From Lichina pygmaea (Eukaryota; Ascomycota; Lichinomycetes; Lichinales; Lichinaceae), in assembly GCA_963422465.1 (NCBI GenBank), contig OY730170.1, positions 1,674,001-1,738,000 of the forward strand: DNA of 64,000 nt. Direction: 5' to 3'. How positions within the stretch are numbered: the stretch's first letter is position 1; the number at the start of each line of letters is the position of its first letter. The notes beneath the pieces were generated by a model. That model had not been told where the DNA came from. It did no database searches and worked only from the letters and a program-made list of their open reading frames with translations. Below are positions 18,929-24,646 of this stretch, piece after piece. The position numbers were made by a program, and so were the translations under genes.

Positions 18929-19814
18929 GGTGATAGTTTCGAACACACCGAGTGAAAAAAGACAACGGAACAATTGCCCTGATACCGAAGGTGGCCTCCA
19001 AGGCTATCTCGGAGCCTAGTCAACCCACGAAGACAACGCTAGAGCCGCAGCATATAATTTCATTGGTTCCATCGAAGGCTGCTAGGGTCACGTAGGTAGA
19101 CAATCCTTTGGCGCAACCAACGGGATGTTTTCTGGACAATCAACCATAAGACGGAAATGTGGCTGCTGCCTGGTGCCGCTACCGCCTTGTCGAGTTCTGT
19201 CTGCAGGATGGGGCGAGGACGGTTATGGTGCAACTATATTGGTGGTGATGATGGTAAAGACGGTGAAGATGCCCTTCGATGGCTTATCGGCTTTGTAAGA
19301 TATCTTCATCTGGAACATAAATGACTACAAGAATAAAAGGACTGCTATACGTGCTCGTTCCTGAACGTACGTCGGTCTTCGGTGTAGGATGATACGGCAA
19401 TGGCTCCCCAAAAGCCGGAGTTTTGACAGCGTATTCTGTGATCAGAGCAGCTGAGGCGGGCTTGAGCAGGTCCGATCATTCGGGGAGTGCTCGTCCGAGA
19501 TGGACTACGTAGGCTCCTTGGTGATCAGGTTGAACCAGCGGCATTGGACGAACGCATGCAAATCATATTTGTCAATGATCACATACCCACGATGGAGTCT
19601 TCGGAGATAAGATGGACGCCATGATATTGGATCGTATGAGCCTAGATCAGCTTGCGCCATCATGGACTGAGAAACCTTGGCAACAAACGAGGGGCCTTCC
19701 AAGGCGAAAGTGAAGAGGGGACAGAGCTTTGGTCGAGTCGAGTATTGAAGATGTACGAGTGATTACGAAACAGGTATTTGCCGGACGTCCTCCTATTCCC
19801 CCCCCCCCCCCCAA
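18929..19814. other. Intergenic region between Bos1 and OM14
   Basis: Promoter of Bos1 and 3' flank of the OM14-like gene. A C-tract of about 14 at 19798-19812 abuts the OM14 stop codon. No other gene is seen. Confidence 0.5.
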
Positions 19815-20691
19815 TCATTGCTTCGGATACTTGTTCTTGAACAGATACCTGAGAAGCAAAGGTCAGCCGTTTGCTCAAGAAGGGGCACCAGAATAACAAT
19901 GTTGGAGTACGTACCGGCTCACGTAGTAGTCCCCTACCGCAAACAGCCCGACCACACCGGCCCAGGCACCGACCAGCTTCCATGTTAGCTCGCCTGCCGA
20001 GTACTTCCGATAGGCGCCAAAGCCGAGGGCCGCGCTCAAGGCCGCGACCACGACGGCATTCCCGACAACGACGGGGTTATCGGCGTTGCGCTGCAGGTCC
20101 TCGCCAGCGGACTTGGCCTCGTCAGATATCCGTTCGACGTCCTTCTTGACTTCCGCCGACGCTTTGGCCTTTGCTTCAAGAACTCGGATCTTGGCTTCGT
20201 GGGCCTGGGCCTTGGCCTGGCGTTTGATCCTCTGATACTCTTCTTCTGACTGCTCCCCGGCTGCTCCCTCCTCGGCTTCGAGTCCTGCCTCTGTCGGCCC
20301 AGCTTGGTTGTCGGTCTTGGTTGACTGCGACTCGTAGTCGGACGACACGGAGCCGACATTGATGCTGTCGACATCGACGAGCGAATCTGTCGAGTCTTCG
20401 GAGTGCTCCACTTGCGGAACAGGGGGAGCACGACTATGGATTGACAGACGTTAGCTTGAGGCTCCTCTAGCAAGCGTCCAATCTTGGTTTTATCGTCGAT
20501 CCATGAGACGGGAGCAGCATCGCATCATCAAACAGGTAGCGACATCCAATACGACGTATGGGATCGAGCTACTTACGCCTGTAAAGTTCGGTCAGATCAG
20601 AGCTCCATCGGATTAAGTCAGGTGAGAAAATGTGACGTACCTCTTCTGCGCTCTGCTTCGGACCCTTGGCCGTGATTTCAGCGTACGACAT
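19815..20691 (-). CDS. OM14-like mitochondrial outer membrane protein with a predicted 2-nt microexon
   Basis: Exons 20691-20641, 20578-20577, 20433-19915 and 19848-19815 give 201 aa. Exon 1 encodes MSYAEITAKGPKQSAEE. Only a 2-nt exon (GC) between a good acceptor (branch CTGAC, then TTTACAG) and a perfect GTAAGT donor restores the frame; direct joining of exon 1 to exon 3 misreads the rest. The join reads EEARAPPVPQVEHSED, as expected for this family. The remainder is an acidic linker, a helical Ala/Lys/Glu segment (QRIKRQAKAQAHEAKIRVL) and C-terminal membrane segments (NAVVVAALSAALGFGAYRKY, LVGAWAGVVGLFAVGDYYVS), ending RYLFKNKYPKQ. Yeast OM14 is an outer membrane protein that can dock ribosomes at mitochondria. 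Assignment rests on the C-terminal pattern. Confidence 0.8.
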
Positions 20692-21237: not shown

Positions 21238-22369
21238 TCATTTGGCGTCAGGAGCCGCCTTGGGTGCCAGTTCCCCGCTGTCGCTCTCGGGCTCTACCTT
21301 CCTCTCCTTCTCTTCGGCAGTCCTAGCTCGTCCTGGCTGAGCCTCTTTCTCTTCTGGGGATGGCGTGGCTGGAGTTGATGCCACGTTTGTAGCCCCGTGA
21401 CCGTGACTGTGGCTGGCAGACGCAGCTGATGATGGTACAGAGCGGGCTTCTGATGCTGGGCTTGCTGCCGGTGCTGACGCTGTCTCTGTGGCGTTTGTAT
21501 TGGCGGATGGTGGCATCGGCGACGGTGGCGAAGCAGCTGGAGGAGAGCCGGGGCTGACACGACTTGCTGCGTAGATACCGTCGGGTTGGCCTCCCTCCAC
21601 GGCCACGTCTCCAGCCTCAACATCATCTTCGTCTAATTCCTCGCCGTAGACGTCGGGGTGTCTCCTGAAGCAGTCTTGCATGTGCCTACGAGCTGATCAG
21701 ACTAGAGAGTACTAGCAGGATGTAGCAAGGCGACCGAACGTACTTGAAGTTCTCGATACAATCCACGCCCTTCACCTCTGCCTTCGAGTAGACGAAGCAG
21801 CTGAAGGCGGCCTTGAACTCGTCGCCACAAGGTCCATGGGCCATGCCACCTAGGCAGGGACAATCCCAATTGATCTCGCCAGTCTCTGGGTTGAAAGCGC
21901 CTTCGCTCTCGGCTTCCTCTTCAATCTCCTGAGCGCTGACTGACGGTTCGGGCTCTGCCGCCGGCTTCAGTGGTTTTTCATCGTCAAACGACTGTGCGGA
22001 TCTCTGCTGCCGAGATCGTGCTCTGACGGTCTCCAAGTCATCTTCCACGACTTCATTGCGTGCATGGCTCGGAGCCGTCGAGCGATCTGTGCGAGGTTAA
22101 CGAGTCTCCTATCATAGTATCGCATCTGAGATCCCCTTACAGACTGGTTCTTCTGCGAAGACATTACTGGTGTTGTAGTAGTAGACTGCGCCAATCGCCA
22201 GACCCAGTCTGAAGAGGGTGCTCTTCCAGCTGCTTGATCCCGTGGCCTTTGACGCAGTGCCTATATTTCTCGCCCCTCGAATGAAAGACGAAGGATGGCG
22301 GGATGATAGATTAGGAGTCTGGCGCTGGAGAGCCTGGCGCCGAAGTAGTCGTGCTGGGGGTCTGAACAT
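21238..22369 (-). CDS. mia40: Mia40/Tim40 intermembrane-space import oxidoreductase
   Basis: Exons 22369-22141, 22086-21744 and 21685-21238 give 339 aa. The introns are 22087-22140 (GTAAGG...CACAG) and 21686-21743 (GTACGT...CGTAG). The N-terminus is an Arg-rich presequence followed by one membrane helix ([20 protein letters not shown]), which anchors the protein in the inner membrane facing the intermembrane space. The catalytic CPC is at 152-154, followed by twin CX9C pairs (C163/C173, C186/C196) in [17 protein letters not shown] and [13 protein letters not shown]. These pass disulfides to small Cys-rich import substrates and are reoxidised by Erv1. The C-terminal tail of about 120 residues, rich in Ala, Ser, Pro and Glu, is low complexity. 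The chosen ATG is the one starting the presequence. Confidence 0.95.
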
Positions 22370-24646
22370 TGTGTGCTGGTCCTGTCGATGCTGAAGAAGC
22401 TGCAAAGCCAGGGACAAGCTTCGGAAGGTTTCGCAAAAACCGATTAGTAATATCAGCCCAGGGCTTTTGGTAAGAAAATCTGCAAGAAAATGACTCCTTA
22501 CACTTTGGGTTAGCATTCTTATAACTTTTGTAAATTTCCGGCAAAACTTGCATTTGTGATACCCGAGATGAAGTCGAAGTGCCAAGCGACATTGTTGTCA
22601 ATGACCACGCTAGGCAGCTAGAAGCCACAGACAGCGAAAGGTGCCTCTGATAATGATAGCTCTATATGAAGATGCTGTCGTGTGGCTGTCGAACAAAGTC
22701 TATCATCTGCTCTTGCTTGTTCAAGAACATCTCAGTCTTTTCCAGTGTTTCACGATCACGGCTACGATCTGTCTCAACTAACATACTCGTACATAAATCA
22801 TCCTAGGAGAGGCGAAATGGAGGTGTTGCTACGTTGATGAGAACCTCGATGGATAAGGCCTAGCCCCGGCTGTTCTCCTTTCGAGTCGACAATGCTTTGA
22901 ATCAGCAGATGTGACCAGACACAAAGGTGTCTGGATACGAATCAACTCTCCTAGATATGTTTCGGGCTGTCCCAGGATGCTTTGTTCTAGGGTCGCCGGC
23001 ACCCGTGGCCGACGCCGTTGACAAAAACGATGCTCTACAGAACTTGCTCGTCTATCTTGGTTCCCAGTCTGTGGTAAGTGCAAGTGGAAGGCACTGTGCT
23101 GAGTCTCTGTTCCCAGATTCCATTTCGCTGTTGCTGTTGCTGTTGCTGTCATGAAGTGTTGCTGGACTCGAGTCTGCTTGTGAGTCTGGTTGTAAACAAT
23201 AACAATTCTGTTATGGCACTCAATGGCAACCGTTTGGTTGCCATGGCGATTTGCGATGTCTGACGGAGGGTTGCTTTATCTGCAATCACATATCAATCCG
23301 ATATCACGTGAGATGAGTGGTTCTGGTACCAGACCTCAATCAGCAGCAAATTGGATCGATTCATGATTCCAGTGATGTATAAAGATTGGAGGCTTACGGC
23401 CAGGCTTTCATCAGACATCACACAGTGCTTTGCGACGCCTAGAAGCTTTTGATGTTCAACGTAGGCTTCGATGAAAGAGATCTTGGATTCTAAGCGGTCG
23501 CTCCGCCTTTGAGTTGAGGCGAATAGCCCCAACAACATACTCTGCACCTGTTCGTGGCGCGTTGTTCGTTTCTACTGATGCGCCTGCTGGTTCCCCGTGG
23601 CCAAGGTGCTTTATCTCGGGCGTCAGTCTCGGCAATGGCAGTTCCAATAGACTCGCAATATACATGCGAGATTTGTATACCTCGTTTTCTGTGTCTGAAA
23701 GACTGTCCCACAACTATAATATAGACAGGCGACTGAACTGCAGGCGCTCAGTTGGAGTTGTCATTGATTGGAGGTGCACTTGGAGTTGGGATTGTCTCCA
23801 TTCGTCGGTGAGACCTGCCCCCCCCCCCCCCCCCCCACAACAGACGCTCTTCGGCTCTCGACAAGAAGGCCTCGATCTGACCATTGCGGTTGCTGATACA
23901 GCGCTTGAACAAATGAGGGGGCTCACAATTGATGTGACACCACCCTGTGACTGTTCTTGGACCATTGTTCATATCTTGAATTTTTGTAGCAGGAGAGTGC
24001 TTTTGGACGTAATGCTCACCAGCTTATCTTATATAAACTTGAAATCACAAACATGATGCTTCTGTACGGCAGTAGTGTCTACTATTAAGAATCAAGCAAT
24101 AAGCTACGTATTCTTGGGGCTTGGGAAGTGTATATACAGTGCAGTTTCATTGTCGTAGCCCCAAGATGAGGAGAAAGAGATGCATGATATCGAGCCTCAC
24201 CTCGTCCAAGCTAAGCTCGAGTCGGCTACCACTTCAACCCCTCACAGCAGCCCTCGGAGCAGCATCGGCACCGACATCGGCATCGTCATCGTCACTCCTA
24301 TCTCGCCCACGACCGGCTGTTTCGTGTAGCTGCACCCCTCCAACCATTAGCTCTGTTTTCCCCACATTCCCCACCAGCCCCGCTTCCCCACCCCCACCAA
24401 CGGCAAGAGCCAGATACGGTAACAAAACGAACTACCGTACTCTGAATCGAGTGCATCGAGTGTTGCGATCAGATATCGGCAAAGTACGTACGCACGTAAT
24501 GACTTGATGCTGCGGTGTACGAGGTATATTGACGTATATACCTATAGTTTCTTGTGGCTGTAGCGGCATCACACTCGTTCGAGTTCCCTCAACGCTGAGG
24601 CGGTTGCTGTAGGGTAGCTGTGTGTCCGGCTTGGATCGTGCAGGCG
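22370..24646. other. Divergent intergenic region Mia40-carbonic anhydrase, with possible small or decayed genes
   Basis: Promoter region for both flanking genes. Two weak coding signals lie inside. On the plus strand, 22927-23074 with a GTAAGT donor joins 23118-23263 after a TTCCCAG acceptor. On the minus strand, 23293-23547 has a gene-like composition. A C-tract of about 18 occupies about 23818-23836. None matches a family I know. Confidence 0.45.
22927..23263 (+). CDS. Possible small two-exon gene or 3' gene fragment, unknown
   Basis: The first piece reads YESTLLDMFRAVPGCFVLG...NDALQNLLVYLGSQSV. It ends at a strong GTAAGT donor (23075), and a 43-nt intron with a CTGAG branch and TTCCCAG acceptor continues the frame as IPFRCCCCCCCHEVLL... 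to a stop at 23263. I could not find a convincing start; the frame begins after a stop near 22910. The Cys run comes from a TGT/TGC microsatellite. It could be a remnant. Confidence 0.25.

Follow-up and report, generated by a model that had tools for sequence, protein, structure and literature searches.

Exons of one to five nucleotides are known and are rare. The description of the CYP621A gene of Fusarium, in which a single-nucleotide exon has the support of SRA reads, also cites exons of 2-5 nt in Arabidopsis, Drosophila and humans (PMC12940212), and a single-nucleotide exon has been described in APC11 of Arabidopsis, where it was tested with GFP-fusion constructs and where, going by a section heading of that paper, it is mostly conserved in rice (PMC4674806). 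The 1-nt exon of Fusarium was the only fungal one that we found in the open PMC literature, and among the papers that our search of it listed we saw no 2-nt exon in OM14 or in any fungus. Here we describe a dinucleotide, GC at positions 20578-20577 of a stretch of DNA from the ascomycete Lichina pygmaea, that probably (we put the probability at about 0.9) is a genuine, constitutive and old 2-nt exon of a nuclear gene encoding an OM14-like protein.

The gene is found on the minus strand (20691-19815) of the window, by which we mean the whole stretch of 64,000 nt that was analysed, taken from contig OY730170.1 of assembly GCA_963422465.1; a 271-nt stretch gave a single match in the L. pygmaea genome (32.5 Mb, 8 contigs). 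It is predicted to encode a protein of 201 aa in four coding exons of 51, 2, 519 and 34 nt (Table 1). Exon 1, which ends in phase 0 at 20641, and the main exon, which starts in phase 2 at 20433, cannot be joined in frame, so that the GC is needed. The preliminary description had pointed to this phase conflict, to the acceptor (CTGAC, TTTACAG) and the GTAAGT donor that border the GC, and to the complete protein of 201 aa that is obtained when the GC is included, and the coordinates, the sequence and the translation agree with it in all three respects. The introns on either side both have a canonical donor, a branch motif and an acceptor (GTACGT/CTGAC/CAG and GTAAGT/CTAAC/TAG), and the GC is both required for the reading frame and part of a codon for a residue of the family. 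The 2-nt exon model puts GCTCGTGCTCCC after GAG, and its predicted spliced junction reads ...GCAGAAGAG-GC-TCGTGCTCCC. Translation of the other possible transcripts yielded a frameshifted product of 102 aa when the GC was skipped, a stop after EEA (18 aa) when intron 2 was kept and a frameshifted product of 170 aa when intron 1 was kept. The stop codon of the gene is closely followed, on the minus strand, by 15 consecutive G (19798-19812), possibly a homopolymer mis-sized in the assembly or an element of the 3' UTR.

Table 1. Predicted features of the OM14-like gene of L. pygmaea, in window coordinates and in the order of transcription.
Feature	Position	Strand	Description
Exon 1, coding part	20641..20691	-	51 nt, MSYAEITAKGPKQSAEE (translation), ends in phase 0 (..GAG)
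Intron 1	20579..20640	-	62 nt, GTACGT...CTGAC (branch A 20592)...TTTACAG
2-nt exon GC	20577..20578	-	with T at 20433 gives codon 18, GCT, Ala
Intron 2	20434..20576	-	143 nt, GTAAGT...CTAAC (branch A 20451)...CCATAG
Main exon	19915..20433	-	519 nt, first base in phase 2 (T CGT GCT CCC)
Intron 3	19849..19914	-	66 nt, GTACGT...CTGAC...TTCTCAG
Last coding exon	19815..19848	-	34 nt, YLFKNKYPKQ and stop; end counted on the sequence

The product would be an OM14-like mitochondrial outer-membrane protein. Its best Pfam match was PF17304 (OM14_C), with 22.7 bits against a cut-off of 26.1, and it is because this match lies below the cut-off that we use the label 'OM14-like'. The six homologs that were scanned all stayed below the same cut-off (19.6-25.0 bits), some other homologs carry a precomputed PF17304 annotation, and the source names of several named matches include 'Mitochondrial outer membrane pro...'. 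The upstream gene, likewise on the minus strand (21686-22597), has a CPC motif and paired cysteine motifs and a weak CHCH match (19.3 bits against a cut-off of 27.2), and on the basis of these motifs we take it to resemble MIA40. OM14 and MIA40, both connected to mitochondrial protein import, would then be arranged head to tail. In yeast, OM14 is described as a receptor for ribosome-associated NAC (PMC4268710).

The strength of the splice sites was judged with weight matrices derived from 66 introns that were predicted ab initio in 264 kb of the L. pygmaea genome, none of them from the OM14-like gene. The thresholds for this set were relaxed because the strict set held 11 introns, too few for weight matrices, and since GTRNGT and YAG are required the 66 introns are biased to consensus sites and surely include some false ones. 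The commonest donor among them was GTACGT (13/66) and the commonest branch motif CTGAC. Ranked against the 66 introns, the sites of intron 1 stood at 97% (donor) and 58% (acceptor), and those of intron 2 at 15% (donor) and 6% (acceptor). The GTAAGT of donor 2, which had earlier been called perfect, is indeed the consensus, but its rank is low, and despite this consensus donor the sites of intron 2 are at the weak end of what is a small model.

We then listed all GT...AG models that lead from the ATG of exon 1 into the main frame without a stop by way of one or two introns, each 40 nt or longer. This yielded 194 in-frame models (14 with one intron and 180 with two), only five of which retained the N-terminal motif together with RAPPV. 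All five have two introns, and each of the 14 one-intron models lacks at least one of these motifs. The model with the 2-nt exon scored 28.2 and the remaining four scored -13.3 to -20.6, making it the only well-scored one among the 194 that retains both conserved motifs. The top-scoring two-intron model (31.1 versus 28.2) also includes the 2-nt exon, uses an acceptor at 20364, and lacks RAPPVPQ as well as a branch motif in range. An arrangement NAG-NN-GT with a branch motif and with both sites at least as strong as those found here turned up a single time when both strands of 264 kb (528 kb of strand) were scanned, namely at this site. The 207-nt interval was shuffled 50,000 times with its dinucleotides preserved and the first 6 and the last 3 nt fixed; an in-frame exon of 2-20 nt of equal strength was obtained 14 times, one of 2 nt 4 times and one encoding Ala18 not once, and with slightly higher thresholds the corresponding numbers in 20,000 shuffles were 12 for any exon of 2-20 nt, 5 for an exon of 2 nt and 0 for one with GC. 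The probability that the site arose by chance is low.

Three protein searches returned 540, 464 and 332 matches, and the best 120 of each together made up 300 distinct proteins, including the ORF of L. pygmaea itself (P0001). All 300 were classified at the junction, automatically except for 11 that were re-assigned by hand (five to no anchor, five to clean and one to read-through). The counts that follow represent neither independent events nor an even sample, because of the redundancy of lineages and the choice of the queries, the second and third of which were taken from the Dothideomycetes and the Chaetothyriales. A clean junction was found in 116 of the listed proteins, 80 read through into RAP without a full exon 1, and 36 had exon 1 followed by an insert of unrelated residues; the remainder had no RAP by pattern (51, many of which start downstream), no usable anchor (16) or a start at R (1). 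The clean junctions were ARAP (74), KRAP (25), ARAH (5) and 12 others (including two VRAP and one SRAP), and the residue at codon 18 in the 111 proteins that were automatically classified as clean was A in 80, K in 28, V in two (both named models) and S in one. The proteins P0002 (73% identical, on a contig of 929 bp) and P0003 read EEARAPPLPEVEHSD.

The clean class consisted of 72 unnamed records on contigs of at most 1350 bp, 30 named records, 13 unnamed records on longer contigs and one of unknown type. Conversely, the 87 unnamed records on such short contigs were distributed over the classes clean (72), read-through (7), no RAP (6) and no anchor (2), with none in the class of exon 1 followed by an insert, all 36 members of which were named genome records. 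We presume that the short-contig records are transcripts, because they hold a full protein in about 1 kb. In an alignment (A1) of 30 sequences, with 29 homologs picked by hand from 120 for a clean junction, M1, S2, Y3, A4, G10, P11, Q13 and E16 were invariant; that R19 and A20 do not vary either follows in part from the selection, since the homologs were picked for being clean at that point. Many of the homologs in this alignment end in KNKYPKK or a similar sequence. Scans of viral contigs and of genome contigs with a profile of the alignment, made in search of the DNA of a relative, did not yield one. In the EEKRAP records (e.g. P0012, P0031 and P0042), some of them from Leotiomycetes, Lys replaces Ala, and these may either keep the exon (as AA) or have lost an intron. 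Another four proteins (P0018, P0093, P0094 and P0106, one of which is from Pleopsidium flavum) start with MSYSPLF... and continue with SRAP or SRAA, a start that seems to reflect a different wrong 5' join common to several records.

The faulty gene models proved informative with respect to the splice sites. If the relatives share the arrangement, a gene finder that is unable to place a 2-nt exon has to extend something, and the extra residues should spell splice sites. At the first donor, 13 of the 36 inserts begin with V (GTN), followed in 11 of these 13 by R, S or G (NGT), as expected for GAG/GTNNGT in phase 0. At the first acceptor, six of the 36 end in QA, which corresponds to CAG/GC (Ascochyta lentis, Pleomassaria, Alternaria, Amniculicola, Rhinocladiella and Xanthocarpia); the Amniculicola insert, LTSSQA, has CTNAC as a possible branch, and that of Rhinocladiella, of 18 codons, could be an in-frame intron 1 followed by GC. 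Five of the 36 begin with A-Y, which corresponds to GC/GTAY at the second donor and is followed by V in four (Cladophialophora, Capronia, Exophiala and Lambiella) and by A in Endocarpon. At the second acceptor, the residue before R19 was S (75) or R (5) in all 80 read-through ORFs, which are the sole residues that a phase-2 AG/N can encode, and the residue preceding it permits a pyrimidine-ending codon (YAG) in 77 of the 80; when P0007 and P0078, which may originate from an ATGTC donor (see below), are left out, S or R is found in 78/78. An upstream stretch of 11 residues or more was available in 55 read-through ORFs, of which 26 carry LT (CTN AC) between -10 and -3; 2000 shuffles of the residues gave 8.0 on average and never more than 17. 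Of 33 LT pairs in the upstream stretches (up to 45 residues), 20 are located at exactly -6, which would set the branch point 13-14 nt ahead of the splice.

Individually these codon readings are non-unique, yet they are consistent, and the four boundaries agree with each other and with those of L. pygmaea. For Exserohilum turcicum two public models differ just at the junction, with EEVRAP in P0114 and EE-HNSILHPG...NNSRAP in P0122. We also considered that the relatives might have a single phase-2 intron after an exon 1 that ends in GAGGC. Against that idea, the inserts of 13 of the 36 faulty models can be read as starting with a GT donor right behind GAG, and a single intron of that kind should have posed no difficulty for prediction.

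With respect to the spread of the exon, the preliminary description had proposed a comparison with related Sordariomycetes. The first named matches were instead Watsoniomyces, Phylliscum and Peltula, of which Watsoniomyces and Peltula belong to the Lichinomycetes according to a lineage look-up. The kinship with Sordariomycetes is thus not borne out, while the idea that the register might be conserved in relatives appears to hold for other Pezizomycotina, judging from predicted proteins. By name, the 36 faulty models comprise 19 Dothideomycetes, 11 Eurotiomycetes, three Lecanoromycetes and one each of the Candelariomycetes, Lichinomycetes and Thelocarpales. The lineages of Rhinocladiella, Xanthocarpia, Amniculicola, Peltula, Thelocarpon, Pycnora, Lambiella and Lachnellula were looked up, and the remaining assignments of the faulty models are ones that we assume. 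No Leotiomycetes were present among these 36 models, with queries that favoured other classes; of the 30 named clean models 14 are presumably Leotiomycetes (Lachnellula was looked up), and others include Bipolaris maydis, Lepidopterella palustris, Xylona heveae and Aspergillus californicus. Since these 30 named models are clean, as are 13 unnamed records on longer contigs, the exon is possibly not universal; in all of these the introns may differ, one of them being absent, or the annotation may be better. Taken together, we infer that the same exon, in the same register between GPKQSxEE and RAPxxP, would be present in Dothideomycetes, Eurotiomycetes, Lecanoromycetes and other Pezizomycotina, and an origin in a common ancestor with later loss seems the simpler reading.

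Several other structures for the interval were weighed. A single intron from the donor at 20640 to an exon that starts at 20405 would give ...SAEE-HSEDSTDS, at the cost of ARAPPVPQVE. It is one of the 14 in-frame one-intron models, and a relative, P0008 (Phylliscum), has been annotated in a similar way (PEE-VEHSD), but its score is 5.8 where that of the 2-nt exon is 28.2, no branch motif lies within range, and the model deletes the RAP motif, which is kept in some form by 72 of the 87 short-contig homologs (51 ARA, 17 KRA and 4 variants), and we regard it as very improbable. Even less credit is given to a model whose first coding exon is the 5-nt ATGTC (donor GTACGC, 20686), joined directly to 20433 to give MSRAPPVPQVE. 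This model is in frame with a score of 5.4, and MSRAPP is the annotated start of P0007 (Watsoniomyces) and P0078 (Thelocarpon impressellum); these two annotations look like the same prediction failure, however, the conserved N-terminus MSYAEITAKGPK that is present in clean homologs would be lost, and the donor is far weaker (the total of 5.4 less 3.1 for the acceptor, versus 10.4 for donor 1). The interval might also be a stwintron, in which an internal intron splits the splice signal of an external one and no exon is left between them, and the stepwise removal of closely set introns has been described for ascomycetes in the stwintron literature. Here both introns have their own complete donor, branch motif and acceptor, and excision of the full 207 nt would fuse a phase-0 end to a phase-2 start and shift the frame, so the twin-intron alternative that had been suggested for this locus is not needed and can be given next to no weight. 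A recursive splice site, i.e. an exon of zero length, was dismissed as well, since 2 nt remain between acceptor and donor and are needed for the frame.

It has also been suggested that the exon is real but acts as a regulated switch, with skipping causing a frameshift in OM14 and decay of the mRNA, which would tune the OM14 level. Skipping was computed to put a stop 261 nt ahead of the last exon junction, as in a target of NMD, and a glucose-regulated microexon of 20 nt has been described in Xlr2 of Trichoderma (PMC11121469). Nothing points to regulation of the 2-nt exon, though, and no skipped form was seen among the homolog proteins, in which such searches would hardly find one; regulation thus seems unlikely, be it less so than the alternative structures above. 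Equally doubtful is a more far-reaching version, in which the exon stems from the common ancestor of most leotiomyceta and was held over hundreds of millions of years, being retained for the sake of a control that its splicing exerts on the OM14 level (decay-prone mRNA would result from skipping or from intron retention), which couples splicing efficiency to co-translational mitochondrial import.

We keep to the reading of a 2-nt exon that would be spliced constitutively in vivo. Each of the two introns would be recognised across itself (intron definition) and the two would be excised in succession, since U1 bound to GTAAGT and the factors at the 3' splice site of intron 1 hardly fit 2 nt apart at the same time. 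The order of removal need not matter: as the last three bases are GAG in exon 1 and CAG in intron 1, donor 2 would be GGC/GTAAGT (-3 to +6) both before and after the loss of intron 1, and with this context unchanged the same mRNA results either way.

With damaged gene models in many distantly related fungi pointing to it, the 2-nt exon appears to be ancient and genuine, and genome annotation seems to have overlooked it often; the data suggest that dozens of public gene models from fungi have a wrong OM14 N-terminus. Gene models of many genomes that break at one fixed codon could serve as a signature for hidden tiny exons. If the exon is shared by several fungal classes, the spliceosome can keep a 2-nt exon over long evolution, and these genes, if the reading is true, form a natural test set for the removal of two introns that are 2 nt apart. 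The gene, the size of the exon in a fungus and, if DNA bears it out, the depth of its conservation would be new.

Among the closest of the described systems is CYP621A of Fusarium, with which the OM14 exon shares an ultra-short internal exon in an ascomycete, a phase conflict at a conserved motif and a structure that is hard for annotation pipelines, but that exon is 1 nt long, is known from Fusarium and is documented with SRA reads, whereas the exon in OM14 is 2 nt long and its conservation over several classes is read from proteins (PMC12940212). The exon of APC11 is similarly ultra-short, placed between two introns and constitutive, and differs in being from a plant, of 1 nt and tested with GFP fusions (PMC4674806). 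The plant and animal exons of 2-5 nt cited above are of the same size class and belong to other kingdoms (PMC12940212). The microexon of Xlr2 in Trichoderma is, like that of OM14, from a filamentous ascomycete, and it is missing from the JGI gene model; unlike the exon in OM14 it is 20 nt long, is included in a glucose-dependent manner and is part of a gene for a transcription factor (PMC11121469). Finally, the resemblance to stwintrons lies in closely set fungal introns that are excised consecutively (PMC5639578), but where in a stwintron one intron splits the splice signal of the other, the introns of the OM14-like gene are complete and the 2 nt between them would stay in the mRNA.
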